This document shows, one piece after another, positions 2,830 to 14,833 of a DNA stretch of 64,000 nucleotides. The number at the start of each line of letters is the position of its first letter. Position 1 is the stretch's first letter. This DNA is from Sediminispirochaeta bajacaliforniensis DSM 16054 (lineage in GTDB: Bacteria > Spirochaetota > Spirochaetia > DSM-16054 > Sediminispirochaetaceae): contig NZ_KB899407.1 of NCBI RefSeq assembly GCF_000378205.1, forward strand, positions 1 through 64,000, in the 5' to 3' direction. The notes beneath the pieces are model-generated. The model worked only from the letters and a program-made list of their open reading frames with translations, did not search any database and had not been told where the DNA came from. The position numbers and the translations under genes are program-made.

Positions 2830-4116
2830 ATGCACGATAATAGTTTTTATAGATACCTTACAGAAAGGCTACGCTACAATGAGAAAAAGGCAACATATTT
2901 GCAAAACTGGGTAGCAAAATATCATGCCTTCAAAAAAGGCAGACCCTTTGGTTCTGTAGCAGATTATCTTTCAATGCTTTCCGCCCGTTTTGAACCATGG
3001 CAGGTCCTTCAGGCAAAGGAAGCGGTCTATCTTTACTTACGCTTTACAGGTAAACTCCCAAAACACGATACTTCGTATAAACCGACTCCCCCTTATAAAG
3101 CAAGAGTCAAAAATACAGAAGATCCTAAACCTCAGGAACAAAGGGAATTATCTGTTATACGGCTGTGGGACGAAGCAACCAGGATAATGCGACAAAGCCT
3201 CAGGATTCAGCACAAATCCTACGCTACTGAAAAAACTTATCTTGGGTGGGTTGAACGATTTGCTCGGTGGTCTCGCCTAACGCCCGATAAACTGACAGAA
3301 CAACATGTTAAAAAGTATCTCTCGCATCTGGCTGTGGATCGAAAAGTTGCAGTAGCAACACAACGGCAAGCATTTAACGCCCTCCTCTATTTCTATCGTT
3401 ACGTTTTAGCAATTCCTATTGAAGATCTGAGTGGGACAGTCGCTTCCAAAATCCCACAACGGCTTCCCGTCGTACTATCGAAAAAGGAAATCGATGCTAC
3501 ACTTTTGTGTCTCCCGGTCCTGCACAAGCTTATGTGTAGAATCATTTACGGAGGTGGATTAAGAATCAGTGAATGTCTTTCCTTACGGATAAAAGATCTT
3601 GATTTTGAAAATGGGGTACTTTTTGTTCGGGCAGGCAAAGGCAATAAAGATCGAAAAACACTTTTTCCTCAATCACTGCATCAGGATGTTAAAACTCATA
3701 TGGCCCATATTCATTTACTTTATGAGGATGATCGGGCAGAACATCGAAATGGGGTCATGCTGCCCTTTGCCTTAGAGCAGAAATACCCGCTTGCAGGAAA
3801 AGAGTGGAAGTGGTTTTGGCTTTTTCCTTCCCCAAAACTTTCCATCGATCCTATGAGTGGAATAGTCCGTAGGCATCACATCTACTCGTCTACACTCCAG
3901 GGAAGTTTCAAAAAGGCATTGGACCGTGCAGGAATACAAAAGCATGCAACTGTCCACACCCTACGCCACAGTTTTGCAACACATCTTATCGAGCATGGCT
4001 ATGATATTCGATCGATACAAGAATTGATGGGGCACTCAGATGTATCTACGACAATGATCTACACCCATATAGCAGAAAAGAATAAATTGAGCGTCATAAG
4101 CCCCCTCGACTTCTGA
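2830..4116 (+). CDS. intI: Integron integrase (tyrosine recombinase)
   Basis: A 428-residue site-specific recombinase that inserts and excises cassettes at attI and attC. The catalytic set is visible: Arg in GGGLRISECLSL (about 244), Lys in GKGNKDRK, HTLRHSFATH (about 375), GHSDVSTT and the nucleophile Tyr in MIYTHI (about 411). The IntI-specific insertion, absent from XerC/D, is present as LPFALEQKYP and the following WFWLFPSPKLSIDP, VRRHHIYSS. The N-terminus is extended by about 90 residues compared with class 1 IntI, an arrangement known in some environmental integrases. It is divergent from the cassettes, the classical orientation. No strong ribosome-binding site precedes the ATG, so an internal start cannot be excluded. 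Confidence 0.92.
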   Translation: MHDNSFYRYLTERLRYNEKKATYLQNWVAKYHAFKKGRPFGSVADYLSMLSARFEPWQVLQAKEAVYLYLRFTGKLPKHDTSYKPTPPYKARVKNTEDPKPQEQRELSVIRLWDEATRIMRQSLRIQHKSYATEKTYLGWVERFARWSRLTPDKLTEQHVKKYLSHLAVDRKVAVATQRQAFNALLYFYRYVLAIPIEDLSGTVASKIPQRLPVVLSKKEIDATLLCLPVLHKLMCRIIYGGGLRISECLSLRIKDLDFENGVLFVRAGKGNKDRKTLFPQSLHQDVKTHMAHIHLLYEDDRAEHRNGVMLPFALEQKYPLAGKEWKWFWLFPSPKLSIDPMSGIVRRHHIYSSTLQGSFKKALDRAGIQKHATVHTLRHSFATHLIEHGYDIRSIQELMGHSDVSTTMIYTHIAEKNKLSVISPLDF

Positions 4117-8854: not shown

Positions 8855-11362
8855 TCAGATTCGTGATTCTGCAAGTTCGTCCACTACCGTTGCGGTGAGG
8901 GCACCGGTGGGACAAACCGAGACACAGGCACCGCAGCTGCGGCAAAGTTCTCGATCCACGCTCATGATCGGAAAATCAAGGGTCCTTGCGTTGTAGGGGC
9001 AGACGGCGACACAACGCAGACAGTTGATACAGCCGCAGTGCATGCAGCGGGCGGCCTCTCTTCGAGCGGCATCCTCGCTGAGGCCGGTTTCAACCTCCGG
9101 GAAACCTGACAGGCGCTCGGAGACGGGGAGCATCGGGCTCTCTTCTTTTGCACTGCCCACATCGGTCACCTCGATGAAGTAGCTTCGATGCTGGCTTTTG
9201 GTCTCCATAACCGAACCTGCTCCGCCGAGGCTTTGATGTATCGCCTGGGCGCTTCTCCGGCCGGCGGCGATGGCCTCGATCACCGATGCGGTCTCACTGG
9301 TGCAGTCTCCGGCGGCATAGATACCATCGCTTTTTGTCTTGCCGGTCGAACTATCGGAAAGGGGCGGAAGAAAATCGGTATCAACACGCTGCCCGGTTGC
9401 AATGATGACAAAGTCGGCATCGATGCTTTGCGACGGAGCTCCGGAGGGAACGGGCTTACGACGTCCCGACTCATCAATTTCGCCAAGGCTCATGGGGGTG
9501 TAGCGAAAGGCCGCGGCCTTGCCGTTGCCCTCTATGCTCTTTGGGCCGGCAAGGAAGATATAGCGTACCCCCTCTTTTTCGGCCTCGCTGATCTCCTCTT
9601 CGTAGGCGGGCATATCTTCCCGTTCCCTACGATACAGGAGGGTCACCGATGCTGCACCGATTCTCAAGGCGGATCGTGCCGCATCCACCGCAGCGTTTCC
9701 ACCACCGATCACCGCGACGTTTTTGCCCGAAAGGCTGGTGAAACGACCGAGCGCAAGATCCCGCAGGAAACGGACGCCGGAGACGACACCCTCTTTATCC
9801 ATACCGGGAATCTCGACCGCGGGATCTCCGTGAGCTCCGGTGGCAATGAGAACTCGCTCGTAGCCCTGCTGTTTTAACTCTTCTATGGAAAGATCCCTAC
9901 CGATGGTAATACCGGTTCTGATTTCCACGCCCATTCGGATGACCCGATCGACCTCCAGTTTGAGGATATTCTTGGGAAGTCGGAACTCGGGGATACCGAC
10001 GGCCAGCATGCCCCCCGCCATGGGGAGAGACTCAAAGATCGTCACGCTGTAGCCGACCCTGGCAAGATAATAGGCGGCGGTAAGTCCTGCGGGCCCGGCG
10101 CCGATAACGGCAAGTTTTTTCCCGTTCTTCGGAAGCATCTCGGGAAGCGGCAGTTTGTCGCCAAAGCTTTCATAGGTTTTATCTGCGGCAAGCCGTTTGA
10201 TGAGACGAATCTGCAAGGAATCATCGAAAAGAGAGCGCCGACAACTTCCCTCGCAGGGATGATCGCAGACCCTGCCGCAGATTCCGGGAAAGGGATTGGT
10301 AACGCTGATGGTTTCATACGCCTGCACATAGTTACCTTTCCGAACCATATCAAGATAGAGGGGAACATCAACCCCGGCGGGACAGGCAGCCTGGCATTTT
10401 GCGTAGTAGGGCTCATATGAGAACTCAAGCTTTGCCACTCGCTCCGCAGTGGGGAAATTGGGTAGTGCAATGCCTTTTGCCTTGGTAAGGGATGAATAGC
10501 CAAGCTGATCAAGTAAAACCGAAAGGTCATGGCAAAGCTTGTTGAGATAATCCATTCCGTGAATGATCAGACTGGAGCAGATGCCTAGGGCCTGGGCACC
10601 GGCCATTACGTATTCCACGGCGTCCTCGGCCTTGCCGATACCGCCGATACCGACAAGTTGACTACAGCCGTTTCGTGCAATCTCCGATACAATACGCATG
10701 GCAACCGGACGCATGGCGGCTCCGGAAAGCCAACCGTAGCCGTCGGCGCTGTTCATTTCGGGTCGGGCGTTTTGAATGTCGATCTTCAGGGTCGGTCCGA
10801 GAGAGTCAATGGCGGAAATAGCGTCCGCCCCCTTTTCAAGGCACTTCCTGGCAGTACCGACAGGATCGGGCCAATTCCCGCTCAGTTTACAGATGACGGG
10901 AATGGAAACCCGCTCTTTTGTGGCAACAAGCATGGGAAGCAAGGTATCTTCAGTATAACTGACAAGCTCGATCATATCGGCTCCGGCGGCCTCCGCACGT
11001 TTGACCAGAGCCTCTGCTTCGGGAAGGGTATGACCGATGCTGGCAATAACAACCGCTCCGGCGGCCTTGGTCATCGGGATTTCCCGCTCAAACCACACCT
11101 CGGGAGGAGAGTCCGCCCATTTTTCACAGTTGATCAGCGAATCCTCGTTCACGATTCCTATATGGGGAGTCGGGTTGATCGCCGCATTAAGGCGGATGGT
11201 TTTTGTCACCACGGCGCCTGCCCCTGCCTTGTGAGCCTCGATCAGGCCCTCGGCCGCATAGGAGAGTGGACCGGATGAGAGAATAAAGGGACTTTGCATG
11301 TTGATGCCGCAAAGCTCACAGCTGATATCGGCACCCTTCAATTCTTTGATATTAATCATCAT
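8855..11362 (-). CDS. PreA/PreT-like fused flavo-iron-sulfur oxidoreductase (atypical active site)
   Basis: An 835-residue fusion. Residues 1-300 are a dihydroorotate-dehydrogenase-like FMN barrel. Residues about 335-400 hold the Cys-rich Fe-S segment of GltD-like proteins (KCQAACPAG, GICGRVCDHPC). Next come FAD and NAD(P) folds (VIGAGPAGLTAAYYLA, VIGGGNAAVDAARSA), then a ferredoxin end with CINCLRCVAVCP and CRSCGACVSVCP. Dihydropyrimidine dehydrogenase has these modules in another order. The active-site loop, normally N-x-S-C-P, reads IELVSYTEDT here and lacks the catalytic Cys. The substrate may therefore not be a pyrimidine. It follows the amidohydrolase gene by 15 bp, so both act together, probably on an N-heterocycle. 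Confidence 0.75.
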   Translation of the reverse strand: MMINIKELKGADISCELCGINMQSPFILSSGPLSYAAEGLIEAHKAGAGAVVTKTIRLNAAINPTPHIGIVNEDSLINCEKWADSPPEVWFEREIPMTKAAGAVVIASIGHTLPEAEALVKRAEAAGADMIELVSYTEDTLLPMLVATKERVSIPVICKLSGNWPDPVGTARKCLEKGADAISAIDSLGPTLKIDIQNARPEMNSADGYGWLSGAAMRPVAMRIVSEIARNGCSQLVGIGGIGKAEDAVEYVMAGAQALGICSSLIIHGMDYLNKLCHDLSVLLDQLGYSSLTKAKGIALPNFPTAERVAKLEFSYEPYYAKCQAACPAGVDVPLYLDMVRKGNYVQAYETISVTNPFPGICGRVCDHPCEGSCRRSLFDDSLQIRLIKRLAADKTYESFGDKLPLPEMLPKNGKKLAVIGAGPAGLTAAYYLARVGYSVTIFESLPMAGGMLAVGIPEFRLPKNILKLEVDRVIRMGVEIRTGITIGRDLSIEELKQQGYERVLIATGAHGDPAVEIPGMDKEGVVSGVRFLRDLALGRFTSLSGKNVAVIGGGNAAVDAARSALRIGAASVTLLYRREREDMPAYEEEISEAEKEGVRYIFLAGPKSIEGNGKAAAFRYTPMSLGEIDESGRRKPVPSGAPSQSIDADFVIIATGQRVDTDFLPPLSDSSTGKTKSDGIYAAGDCTSETASVIEAIAAGRRSAQAIHQSLGGAGSVMETKSQHRSYFIEVTDVGSAKEESPMLPVSERLSGFPEVETGLSEDAARREAARCMHCGCINCLRCVAVCPYNARTLDFPIMSVDRELCRSCGACVSVCPTGALTATVVDELAESRI

Positions 11363-11377
11363 CTTTCCTCCACGATG

Positions 11378-12691
11378 TTATGAAAAGGTCCAAAACGTCT
11401 CAGTTGCCTCGCGCAGTTCGTCTTTGATCGCCGCCTCATCAAGGGTAAGCAGTTTTCCCTGTTCTTTGAGAAGAACGCCGTTGACCATAACCTCACAGAC
11501 ATCCTCGGGGTTTCGGAAAAGGATCAGTTGATCGTACACATTTTTCTCATTGATCGGTGTCGGTGTATCCAGACCGATGGTGATGATATCCGCCAGAGCC
11601 CCCTCTTTGATGGTCCCGATATCGTCTCTACCCATCGCTCTTGCACCTTGGGCTGTGGCAGTGTCATAGACCGCCGAGGCAGGCATCACCTGAGGATCCT
11701 GATGGTAGGCTTTATGGATCAGAAAGGCGCCCCGCATCACCTCGAAAAAATTATTAACATAACCGTCCGTACCGAGACCGGTGGTCACCCCTTTTTCCAG
11801 GTAACTCGGAATCGGGGCCACACCACCGCCGACCTCGCAATTTGAAAGGGGCATATGGACCACGCGTACCCCCCGTTCGGCGAGAATGTCGATCTCTTTC
11901 GGGCTCATTTGCACACCCTGGCTTGCAAGGACGTGAGGCCCGAGATAGCCCCACTCATCGTACAATTCAACGGGACGCTTACCGTATTTCTCCATGACCC
12001 AATTGGGTTCGTACACGCTTTCGGAAAGATGCATATGGATACCGCAGCCCAGTTCATCCGCCGCCTTTTTGGCCTGCATGATGTACTCTTTGCCGGCGGT
12101 AAACAAGGTGTGAATGGAAATCATCCCTTGCACCAGACTTCCCTCTTTATTGTTGTTCCTTGCAAAATCAATATTTTCCTTCAGACCGACCTGCCCATTC
12201 TCGGGACTTATTCGCTCACATGCCTCAAAACTGAGGATGCCTCGAAGACCTGCCGACTCCACAACACGTTTCTCAATATCCAGAGCACCGGGAACCGAAT
12301 TGGGCCCTTCCAGAACCTCCATGAAGGTGGTGATACCGCTTTTGATCATTTCCACACAGGCCCACTTCGTCGTGATTTCCACCAGACGATGGTCGATCCT
12401 GTTCTCCACATAGGGCCACCAGAAATCCTCAAGGAAGCTGGTAAAGTCGGTAACTACCGCATCGGCACTGATACCGTGGGAAAGCACACCATACATATGC
12501 ATGTGGCCGTTGATAAATCCCGGAGCAATAAGCTTATCGGTTGCATCGATACATTTGTCTCCGGCAGAAACGGTCAGGCTTTCGTTGGGTCCGACCTGCA
12601 CGATGGTATTCCCTTCCACCCGCACGCCCCACGCCTTTCGAATGCCTTCTTCGAGCATCAAAAAGCCACCTTTGATAACAGTATTGGCCAT
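11378..12691 (-). CDS. Amidohydrolase-superfamily deaminase/hydrolase (SsnA/TrzN-like)
   Basis: A 437-residue COG0402-type metal hydrolase. Metal ligands are seen as GHMHMYG (HxH, about 61-67), HMHLSES (about 218-224), VVHMPLSNC (about 273-281) and GLGTDGYVN (Asp, about 303-311). Relatives deaminate guanine, cytosine, S-adenosylhomocysteine or triazines. It is first in a two-gene operon with a PreA/PreT-like flavoprotein, a pairing that suggests stepwise breakdown of a heterocyclic base. Transcription starts at a strong promoter holding a LacI-type operator. The exact substrate is unknown. Confidence 0.8.
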   Translation of the reverse strand: MANTVIKGGFLMLEEGIRKAWGVRVEGNTIVQVGPNESLTVSAGDKCIDATDKLIAPGFINGHMHMYGVLSHGISADAVVTDFTSFLEDFWWPYVENRIDHRLVEITTKWACVEMIKSGITTFMEVLEGPNSVPGALDIEKRVVESAGLRGILSFEACERISPENGQVGLKENIDFARNNNKEGSLVQGMISIHTLFTAGKEYIMQAKKAADELGCGIHMHLSESVYEPNWVMEKYGKRPVELYDEWGYLGPHVLASQGVQMSPKEIDILAERGVRVVHMPLSNCEVGGGVAPIPSYLEKGVTTGLGTDGYVNNFFEVMRGAFLIHKAYHQDPQVMPASAVYDTATAQGARAMGRDDIGTIKEGALADIITIGLDTPTPINEKNVYDQLILFRNPEDVCEVMVNGVLLKEQGKLLTLDEAAIKDELREATETFWTFS

Positions 12692-12728: not shown

Positions 12729-12757
12729 ATTATAGCCCCTTGAAACCGGTTTCACAA
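12729..12757 (-). promoter_or_regulatory. Promoter with LacI-type operator
   Basis: On the minus strand TTGTGA (12757-12752), 17 bp and TATAAT (12734-12729) form a near-consensus promoter. Between them lies TGAAACCGGTTTCA (12741-12754), a perfect 14-bp palindrome with a central CG, as bound by LacI-family repressors. The core AAACCGGTTT recurs in the promoter of the MFS gene (21240-21251). No LacI-family gene is in the window. Confidence 0.75.
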
Positions 12758-12870: not shown

Positions 12871-14172
12871 ATGAAATCTTCTATGACAGAACATCAGATG
12901 ATCCACAGACGAATAGCCATCAAAGTACATTCTCTGCCATATGCCAGCACTATCGCTCTCTTTTTGTTCTGTAACTCCCTACTTTTGTATTTCGCTTCGA
13001 CCCTTTACTATGGCAGTATACAATCTCATAGTGCTTCGCTTTGGGCCGCCTTTCGATGGCAATTTCTCCTGTTAATGGCCATATCGTTTTGTGCTTCCAT
13101 ATCCCAGATTTTCTTTTACCTACAGAAGAGTTCCCGCCTGCTTTTTTCCGAGTTGATACAATTCGTTTCACTAGTACTTATTGGCCTACCGATGGGACAG
13201 GACCTCACTATTGAGATGATCCTCAGTTGTGCACTTATTACCATGATCATCATGACCAATAGCCCAATTGCATGGATAAAGGTCCCTTTTATTCTCCTGG
13301 CATTTACCGTATTCCAATTCAAGCTTCGCTTTTTAGGCTATACGGTTGAAGCAGCCAAAGGGCGAATTCTGGCTATCTCCGAAATTGTTCTGCTACTTGT
13401 CTCTCTCATCATGTTCTTTATCAAAGACCTCATCAGTAATAATATCGAACTGAGACAAAAAAACAGGCAGCTGGAGGAAACCACCGGTCTTCTTACCAAT
13501 GCTAATCGTTCCATTCAGGAATATACCCTGAGCATGGAAGAGCTATCTGCGGAAAAAGAGCGGTTGCGCATGACCCGGGAACTTCACGACATTATTGGTT
13601 ATACCATGGTTAACACTACAATAATGATGGAAGAAGCAATCGCCCGCTACAAGCAAAAGGATGAGAGTGCACTTCTGACCTTAATTGTCAAAACCAGGGA
13701 TCACGCAAAGAATGCGCATCAGGATGTCAGAAAAATATTATTAAATTATCGCTCGCAGCAAAAACGAAAGAGCTCTTTTATTAAGGACCTCATCAAACTG
13801 ACAGAGACCTTTTCCTTAGCAACGGGCATAAGCATAGAGGTTTTTCCGTCAAACTTTCCGTCTGTTTTACCGTATCATGTTAGTTATGCTTTACTCAGGA
13901 TTTCGCAGGAAGGACTTACCAACTCCCTTTATCATGGAAGGGCAAAGAACATCGTCTTTCTATTAACAAAAAGCATAGATTCGTTGTTTCTTATTATCAG
14001 GGACAACGGACAAGGGTCGATTCATTACGAAGAAGGTTTGGGTATCTCCGGTATGCGAGAGCGTTTACGAATGTTGAAAGGAACGCTCACCATCAAAGCA
14101 AAAAAAGATGTGTTTGAACTGCATATAGAAATTCCATACAAAGAGGGGCAACCAGATGTCGGATCGCATTAA
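12871..14172 (+). CDS. Membrane sensor histidine kinase (NarL/LiaS type)
   Basis: A 433-residue sensor kinase. Six or so hydrophobic segments fill residues about 22-190 with short loops, then a coiled coil (190-230). The H-box LRMTRELHDIIGYTM (about 231-245) is of the HisKA_3 type, and the ATPase end shows RISQEGLTNSLYHGRA (N-box) and GLGISGMRERL. The stimulus is not evident. It overlaps the response regulator gene by 17 bp, so the two are a pair, and both converge on a sugar ABC operon. A TATAAT at 12863-12868 is so close to the first ATG that a start at 12883 (MTEHQ) is possible. Confidence 0.88.
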   Translation: MKSSMTEHQMIHRRIAIKVHSLPYASTIALFLFCNSLLLYFASTLYYGSIQSHSASLWAAFRWQFLLLMAISFCASISQIFFYLQKSSRLLFSELIQFVSLVLIGLPMGQDLTIEMILSCALITMIIMTNSPIAWIKVPFILLAFTVFQFKLRFLGYTVEAAKGRILAISEIVLLLVSLIMFFIKDLISNNIELRQKNRQLEETTGLLTNANRSIQEYTLSMEELSAEKERLRMTRELHDIIGYTMVNTTIMMEEAIARYKQKDESALLTLIVKTRDHAKNAHQDVRKILLNYRSQQKRKSSFIKDLIKLTETFSLATGISIEVFPSNFPSVLPYHVSYALLRISQEGLTNSLYHGRAKNIVFLLTKSIDSLFLIIRDNGQGSIHYEEGLGISGMRERLRMLKGTLTIKAKKDVFELHIEIPYKEGQPDVGSH

Positions 14173-14833
14173 ACTGGTGCTCGCGGATGACCAGACACTC
14201 TTTCGCGAAAGCCTGTCCAATATTTTGAAACTGAAAGCGAAAGAATTCGATGTTGTCGGCCTGGCTCAAAACGGGGAAGAGGCCGTTGCCCTTGCGGCAT
14301 CAACCGCTCCGGATATCATTTTGATGGATGTCAGAATGCCTATTCTGGATGGAGTGGAAGCAACCAAAATCATCCATGAACGATTTCCGGACATTAAGAT
14401 CATGATGCTGACAACCTTCGATGACGATGAATATATTCTCCATGCCATTCAGAACGGAGCCATCGGTTATATCATTAAGACCATTCCACCCAACGAGCTG
14501 ATTACATCCATCATGGCCCTGAAAAACGGTATATTCCAGATGTCTCCTTCCATTGCCGGAAAATTGGCTCGGCAGAAAGTGTGGGAACAAACAAAGACAA
14601 ACATGCTGAACAAAGAACCGCTGCCTTCTTGGTTCCTCTCCCTGCGCGCCAAGGAACGGGCGCTACTTCTGTTAATCTGCCAGGGATACACAAATAAGGA
14701 GATTGGAAACAGGCTCTACCTTGCAGAACAGACGGTGAAAAACTACACAAGCCGAATCTATGAGGCAATGGAAGTAGATAACCGTCATGCTGCAATCAAA
14801 AAGGCCCTTGATGCCAATATCGACCAACTATAA
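14156..14833 (+). CDS. NarL/FixJ-type response regulator
   Basis: A 225-residue regulator. The receiver domain (5-120) has LADDQ (acidic pair), IILMDVRMP (phosphoacceptor Asp about 59), TTFDDDEY and KTIPPNE (conserved Lys). The C-terminal LuxR-type helix-turn-helix is at about 165-220 (ERALLLLICQGYTNKEIG, QTVKNYTSRIYEAM). It is the partner of the overlapping kinase. Its stop codon touches the stop codon of the convergent ABC permease gene (14833/14834), leaving no room for a separate terminator. Confidence 0.9.
   Translation: MSDRIKLVLADDQTLFRESLSNILKLKAKEFDVVGLAQNGEEAVALAASTAPDIILMDVRMPILDGVEATKIIHERFPDIKIMMLTTFDDDEYILHAIQNGAIGYIIKTIPPNELITSIMALKNGIFQMSPSIAGKLARQKVWEQTKTNMLNKEPLPSWFLSLRAKERALLLLICQGYTNKEIGNRLYLAEQTVKNYTSRIYEAMEVDNRHAAIKKALDANIDQL

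Follow-up and report, generated by a model that had tools for sequence, protein, structure and literature searches.

A pair of adjacent genes in Sediminispirochaeta bajacaliforniensis DSM 16054 encodes a candidate purine reductase (P1) and a COG0402 amidohydrolase (P2). Sequence comparisons are best explained if this pair is an ancient paralog of UacX and SsnA, the reductase and hydrolase of yanthine (2,8-dioxopurine) (PMC12507026). The two proteins probably act in two steps as one module, with reduction of a purine ring followed by its opening; the ring is perhaps that of another oxopurine. The window analyzed here is a stretch of 64,000 nucleotides (positions 1–64,000 of contig NZ_KB899407.1).

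The anaerobic breakdown of purines by bacteria of the gut and the environment matters for urate balance and for nitrogen cycling. Its reductive route, the uric-acid (yanthine) pathway, was solved only in 2025, with the reactions shown biochemically (PMC12507026; commentary PMC12990295).

Gene Pair, Promoter, and Domain Architecture

Both genes are on the minus strand and are separated by 15 bp. P2 (437 amino acids) extends from 12691 to 11378 and is followed by P1 (835 amino acids), which extends from 11362 to 8855; the original prediction had both positions exactly right. The second start is preceded by GGAGG. Each protein has full-length homologs in other phyla with 60–75% identity, and the dN/dS between the window species and a sister species (G001) is 0.03 for both genes (0.032 for P1). 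Neither is therefore a chance open reading frame, and both are under purifying selection.

A promoter is located at 12729..12757 on the minus strand. The 17-bp spacer between its TTGTGA and TATAAT boxes contains a perfect 14-bp LacI-type palindrome, TGAAACCGGTTTCA (12741–12754), and no further perfect copy of this palindrome is present in the genome. The operon had been proposed to be under a LacI-type operator. The unique palindrome in the promoter spacer agrees with this proposal; however, because the neighbors tested included no LacI gene, control by a LacI-type regulator is plausible but unproven.

P1 has Pfam matches to DHO_dh (residues 15–282), Fer4_20 (321–398), and Pyr_redox_2 (416–701), and two [4Fe-4S] motifs (CINCLRCVAVC and CRSCGACVSVC) are located at residues 778–823. 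These positions place an FMN barrel (residues 1–315; 10418..11362) first, a GltD-like cassette composed of Fer4_20 and the FAD and NAD(P) Rossmann folds (residues about 322–776; 9035..10399) second, and a 2x[4Fe-4S] ferredoxin tail (residues 777–835; 8855..9034) last, all on the minus strand. As had been predicted, this order is unlike that of the animal-type dihydropyrimidine dehydrogenase (DPD), in which the barrel follows the FAD/NADPH part. The AlphaFold model of P1 has modest overall confidence (pLDDT 76, pTM 0.52), and we therefore used only the strands and helices of the barrel. The model matched DPD over the barrel (Z 31.7, 298 residues, 2.5 Å) and NfnABC over the GltD part (Z 32.5, 434 residues, 4.0 Å). 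A sequence search revealed no close solved structure for the P1 clade; the top match was DPD with 102.6 bits.

Some relatives of P1 are split. In one of these (locus L022), the barrel joins the ferredoxin tail directly (YEPDYAPC, then VNCGRCVEVC). The GltD-like cassette of P1 occupies this joint, and the tails of the two proteins are 80% identical across 50 residues. In the phylogeny, fused forms are intermingled with split ones; the cassette was therefore gained or lost more than once. The cassette would give P1 direct NAD(P)H input, whereas the split relatives presumably use ferredoxin, by analogy to what has been proposed for UacX.

Phylogenies and Active-Site Residues

The UacX sequence was taken from a C. 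difficile-like genome that was picked by gene content and not by accession. In this genome, locus L124 reads YgeX-YgeY-UacY-SsnA-UacT-UacX-HyuA-XdhD, the layout of xdhA1-A5 matches PMC11448449, and yqeC is located before mocA. In the maximum likelihood phylogeny of the barrels, the P1 clade (34 sequences) and the UacX clade were each supported at 100/99, were sisters at 98/88, and were set apart from PreA and DHOD; P1 did not fall inside the UacX clade. The hydrolase phylogeny gave a corresponding result, with the P2 and SsnA clades each supported at 100 and grouping as sisters at 98. Because the two phylogenies mirror one another, the reductase and hydrolase apparently were duplicated as a pair.

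The scores against family models were below their cut-offs: 354.6 bits for P1 against YgfK (TIGR03315, cut-off 835.3, match confined to residues 316–819), 270.3 bits for P2 against SsnA (TIGR03314, cut-off 455.5), and 151.8 bits for P1 against PreA (NF006183, cut-off 335). The description of P1 as PreA/PreT-like holds for the architecture and for distant homology, but not beyond these, with the barrel located outside the PreA clade. The original prediction had named a phylogeny of the FMN domain as a check, and placement within a characterized clade sharing the active-site loop as its refutation. We found a sister clade to the characterized one, with a different loop and a different pocket residue.

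The loop between β4 and α4 (ELVSYTED, residues 132–139; 10946..10969, minus strand) is shortened and lacks the N-x-S-C-P motif. The absence of this motif from the stretch IELVSYTED had been noted before, and both the clade alignment and the AlphaFold model bear out the shortening: the stretch compared comprises 17 residues in P1 versus at least 30 in PreA, and in the model only three residues lie between a strand (130–134) and the following helix (138–151). The pattern E-[LV]-V-S-Y was found in all 34 members of the P1 clade, with E, V, S, and Y invariant, and was absent from UacX, PreA, and DHOD. At the position of the substrate-contacting Asn of DPD, DHOD, and UacX, P1 has Asp186 (10805..10807, minus strand); this residue is Asp in 34/34 clade members and Asn in the UacX, PreA, and DHOD sequences. 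PreA and DHOD combine the Asn with the N-x-S-C-P loop, and the two UacX sequences combine it with the loop ELSTHYVG or EISAHYVG. The UacX-type loop S-[TA]-H-Y-V-G, a pattern derived from these two sequences and not from a published definition, is absent from P1, as is the Asn; V-S-Y and Asp186 are present instead. By position only, Tyr136, Ser135, and Glu138 are candidates for a proton donor in place of the cysteine, and Glu138 is not invariant in the clade. Since UacX also lacks the cysteine loop, the loop alone is no proof of another substrate. The barrels of P1 and YgfK could not be mapped residue by residue, as their HH alignment was too weak.

Among named or solved barrels, PreA and DHOD are the closest, and P1 could on these grounds be regarded as a dihydropyrimidine dehydrogenase that depends on NAD(P)H and has a rearranged domain order. 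However, the PreA score, the placement outside the PreA clade, the missing N-x-S-C-P, the exchange of Asn for Asp, and the purine genes that surround the relatives of P1 make this highly improbable. We rejected a pyrimidine function for P1 on the basis of the PreA score, the tree placement, and the loop and pocket residues.

P2 had been taken for a COG0402 hydrolase, and it is one: it matches Amidohydro_1/COG0402, and the SsnA models score best among the named models, albeit below cut-off. The hallmarks of COG0402 (the fold, H-x-H, the strand-5 His and Glu, and the strand-8 Asp) are all found in P2, and H63, H65, H221, E224, and D309 are invariant in the alignment of its clade. The P2 model (pLDDT 92) matches solved COG0402 deaminases with a Z of about 49 (421 residues, 2.2 Å). 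The strand-6 His of COG0402 enzymes is replaced by Gln258 (11918..11920, minus strand). All 16 aligned members of the P2 clade have Gln at this position, whereas His is found in SsnA, in GuaD, and in every other COG0402 protein of the comparison. The SQ of P2 aligns opposite the AH of 3hpa, and Gln258 is located on a strand (E254–259) in the model. The motif D-x-[LV]-E-[AG]-P of the P2 clade corresponds to D-H-H-[AC]-S-P in SsnA.

Gene Neighborhoods and Coexistence with Yanthine-Pathway Enzymes

Relatives of P1, either full-length or split, were found in Bacillota and Atribacterota, mostly with 55–75% identity over the barrel; the split relatives in spirochaetes are 41–53% identical. P2 relatives are nearly always located near P1 relatives where the locus is long enough. 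In 40 loci of relatives, which span Bacillota, Atribacterota, and spirochaetes, the neighbors include the XDH Mo subunit (29 loci), YgeY (18), D-hydantoinase (15), the diaminopropionate lyase YgeX (10), and a YgeW-like transferase (7), as well as purine permeases and carbamate kinase. The D-hydantoinase and diaminopropionate ammonia-lyase neighbors score above cut-off. These genes make up the yanthine pathway set, which is largely present in many relatives. The active-site motifs of XDH gave no pointer to the substrate. A plasmid search for close copies returned PreA/PreT at about 30% only.

UbiD decarboxylases adjoin some of the clusters, and for this reason we considered a Rabinowitz-type role for P2 as a xanthine amidohydrolase. 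The Rabinowitz-type pathway of xanthine needs no reductase, and this role was rejected.

The enzymes of the yanthine pathway coexist with P1 and P2. YgfK scored above cut-off in 9/10 genomes with a P1-clade member, compared to 9/391 sampled Clostridia (Fisher p about 4e-13, for a sample picked by similarity, uncorrected for phylogeny or kinship and for the way in which the genomes were located). This coexistence could be redundancy. The C. difficile-like genome contains the UacX/SsnA cluster and, 1.4 Mb away, a pair from the P1/P2 clade whose cluster has its own XDH, HyuA, YgeY, and YgeX. In another genome (G253), ygfK- and ssnA-like pieces adjoin the P1/P2-clade cluster. The genome of the window strain itself has a canonical uric-acid-type cluster on a different contig from P1 and P2 (C4, about 150–166 kb) with ygfK (1447 bits), ssnA (599 bits), xdhD, ygfM, ygeY, and ygeW.

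The best explanation also has a narrower version, in which P1 and P2 are another yanthine reductase and hydrolase, i.e., an NAD(P)H-dependent, fused version of UacX with its SsnA for other redox or regulatory conditions. The match of the neighbors to the uric-acid cluster and the sister relationship of both proteins to UacX and SsnA fit this reading, as do three clusters (L014, L043, and L018) in which no reductase or hydrolase other than P1 and P2 was seen. On the other hand, YgfK or UacX coexists in nearly every genome tested, the changes in the loop, from Asn to Asp, and from His to Gln are invariant in their clades, and the XDH of the P1/P2 clade is unlike XdhD. We consider such an isozyme quite possible, but do not favor it.

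The pair stands alone in the window strain, with no purine gene found next to it. The clade-type XDH, which is 58–69% identical across four related spirochaetes, is absent from this genome (G000), where the best match has 37% identity. The substrate of P1 and P2 must therefore come another way in this strain. These absences, together with a phylogeny in which the closest relatives of P1 are from Bacillota while other spirochaetes carry the split form, would also be expected for a horizontally acquired remnant of a lost pathway that is now decaying or idle. The intact reading frames, the dN/dS of 0.03 between two species, and a promoter of its own with a unique palindrome argue against such a relict, and we regard it as unlikely.

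Proposed Function and Comparison with Known Systems

The domains of P1 suggest that electrons from NAD(P)H would pass through the GltD-like FAD domain and the [4Fe-4S] clusters to the FMN of the barrel. Given the gene context and the sister relationship to UacX, the barrel would then reduce a double bond in the pyrimidine ring of an oxopurine by hydride transfer. P2 would hydrolyze the dihydropurine product, and thereby draw the unfavorable reduction forward. The proposed reductive route for an N-heterocycle thus has good support, with purines as the class of ring indicated by the gene context of the relatives and the relationship to UacX and SsnA. That the ring was not yet described is only partly right: a 2025 publication describes a reductive route for purines (PMC12507026), and the barrel and the hydrolase group beside UacX and SsnA, although as separate sister clades.

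That the active sites are altered and that YgfK or UacX coexists with the pair suggests that the module acts on a different oxopurine, or that it runs the same chemistry when conditions differ. The Asp in place of Asn, the other loop, the Gln in place of His in P2, and the presence of a yanthine reductase in the same genomes favor a different purine without proving it. We tentatively put forward, at slightly less than an even chance, a second reductive route of purine catabolism that runs parallel to the yanthine route in the same cells and acts on another oxopurine, e.g., one derived from xanthine, hypoxanthine, or 8-oxoguanine. Its reductase would protonate the substrate without a cysteine loop and recognize it through the Asp, and its hydrolase would use Gln for the strand-6 His. 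If this is true, the second paralogous module that accompanies the first in C. difficile-like and Lachnospiraceae genomes is an entry point absent from current pathway maps. The pair also shows how active sites can vary in nature: the mobile cysteine loop is missing from a DHOD-type reductase, and the strand-6 His from a COG0402 hydrolase.

Searches of the literature on dihydroxanthine, UacX, and yanthine did not turn up a second module. Barba et al. 2013 (PMC4016543) describe an uncharacterized clade of DHOD/DPD type, X1, beside hyuA, ygeW, ygeY, ssnA, and xdhABC. Matched by gene context, X1 probably includes the barrel family of P1, and possibly UacX too. In the papers surveyed, PMC4016543 included, we found no mention of the fusion, of the differences in the active sites, or of the coexistence.

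Among known systems, UacX and SsnA of C. difficile (PMC12507026) share with P1 and P2 the FMN barrel with a 2x[4Fe-4S] tail, the lack of the N-x-S-C-P loop, the COG0402 partner, and the same set of downstream genes. They differ in that the barrels are sisters with about 35% identity, with ELSTHYVG and Asn in UacX versus ELVSY and Asp in P1; the strand-6 His of SsnA is Gln in P2, a GltD-like NAD(P)H module is inserted in P1, and both kinds coexist in one genome. YgfK and SsnA of E. coli share the order of barrel, FAD/NAD(P) part, and ferredoxin as well as the paired hydrolase; however, the barrel of YgfK is far divergent, P1 and P2 are far below the TIGR03315 and TIGR03314 cut-offs, and true YgfK and SsnA are present elsewhere in the genome of the window strain. 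PreA/PreT and the animal dihydropyrimidine dehydrogenase have the DHOD-type FMN barrel, the GltD-like module, and the Fe-S relay in common with P1, whereas P1 is without the loop cysteine and the Asn, and has another domain order and another gene context.

Genes around P1 and P2 in the window

The fused purine-reductase candidate (P1) and the adjacent COG0402 amidohydrolase (P2) were possibly gained by horizontal transfer. A histidine kinase and a LuxR-type response regulator are encoded at window positions 12871-14833, in divergent transcription that starts beside the P2 promoter. A phage-type integrase gene is located close to the P1/P2 region, at 2830-4116.

Split ygfK genes and candidate lyases and hydrolases

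In four Clostridia genomes (G159, G369, G133, and G350) ygfK is split; the open frames, of 535-615 aa, cover only the YgfK barrel part. Two PALP-fold enzymes adjoin the canonical ygfK cluster on another contig of the window genome (L071:1016-3792) and likewise a cluster containing a relative of the P1 barrel (P1 clade; L086:14887-17592), at which no YgeX was seen. The enzymes at both loci may be stand-ins for diaminopropionate lyase. An M19 dipeptidase (PF01244) is encoded next to the P1-clade barrel at L027:12644-13624 and in further Lachnospiraceae loci, as is one recognized by sequence likeness at L101:8213-9115. Neither YgeW nor UacY was seen where this dipeptidase accompanies the barrel; the dipeptidase may be the enzyme that cleaves the acyl or ureido group still left.

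Oxidoreductase and decarboxylase neighbors

Aldehyde:ferredoxin oxidoreductase-like genes adjoin P1-clade clusters in Atribacterota and spirochaetes (L013:7054-8925, L011:5341-7266, and L085:6727-8622). UbiD-type decarboxylases adjoin P1/P2-clade clusters at L009:6994-8325, L022:6238-7557, L024:7000-8412, L040:184-1596, and L043:1012-2379; the L040 cluster is also adjoined by a gene (13779-14339) whose product, judged by the start of its sequence, looks like a UbiX flavin prenyltransferase. No step in the known reductive purine pathway requires the UbiD-type decarboxylases or the UbiX-like gene.
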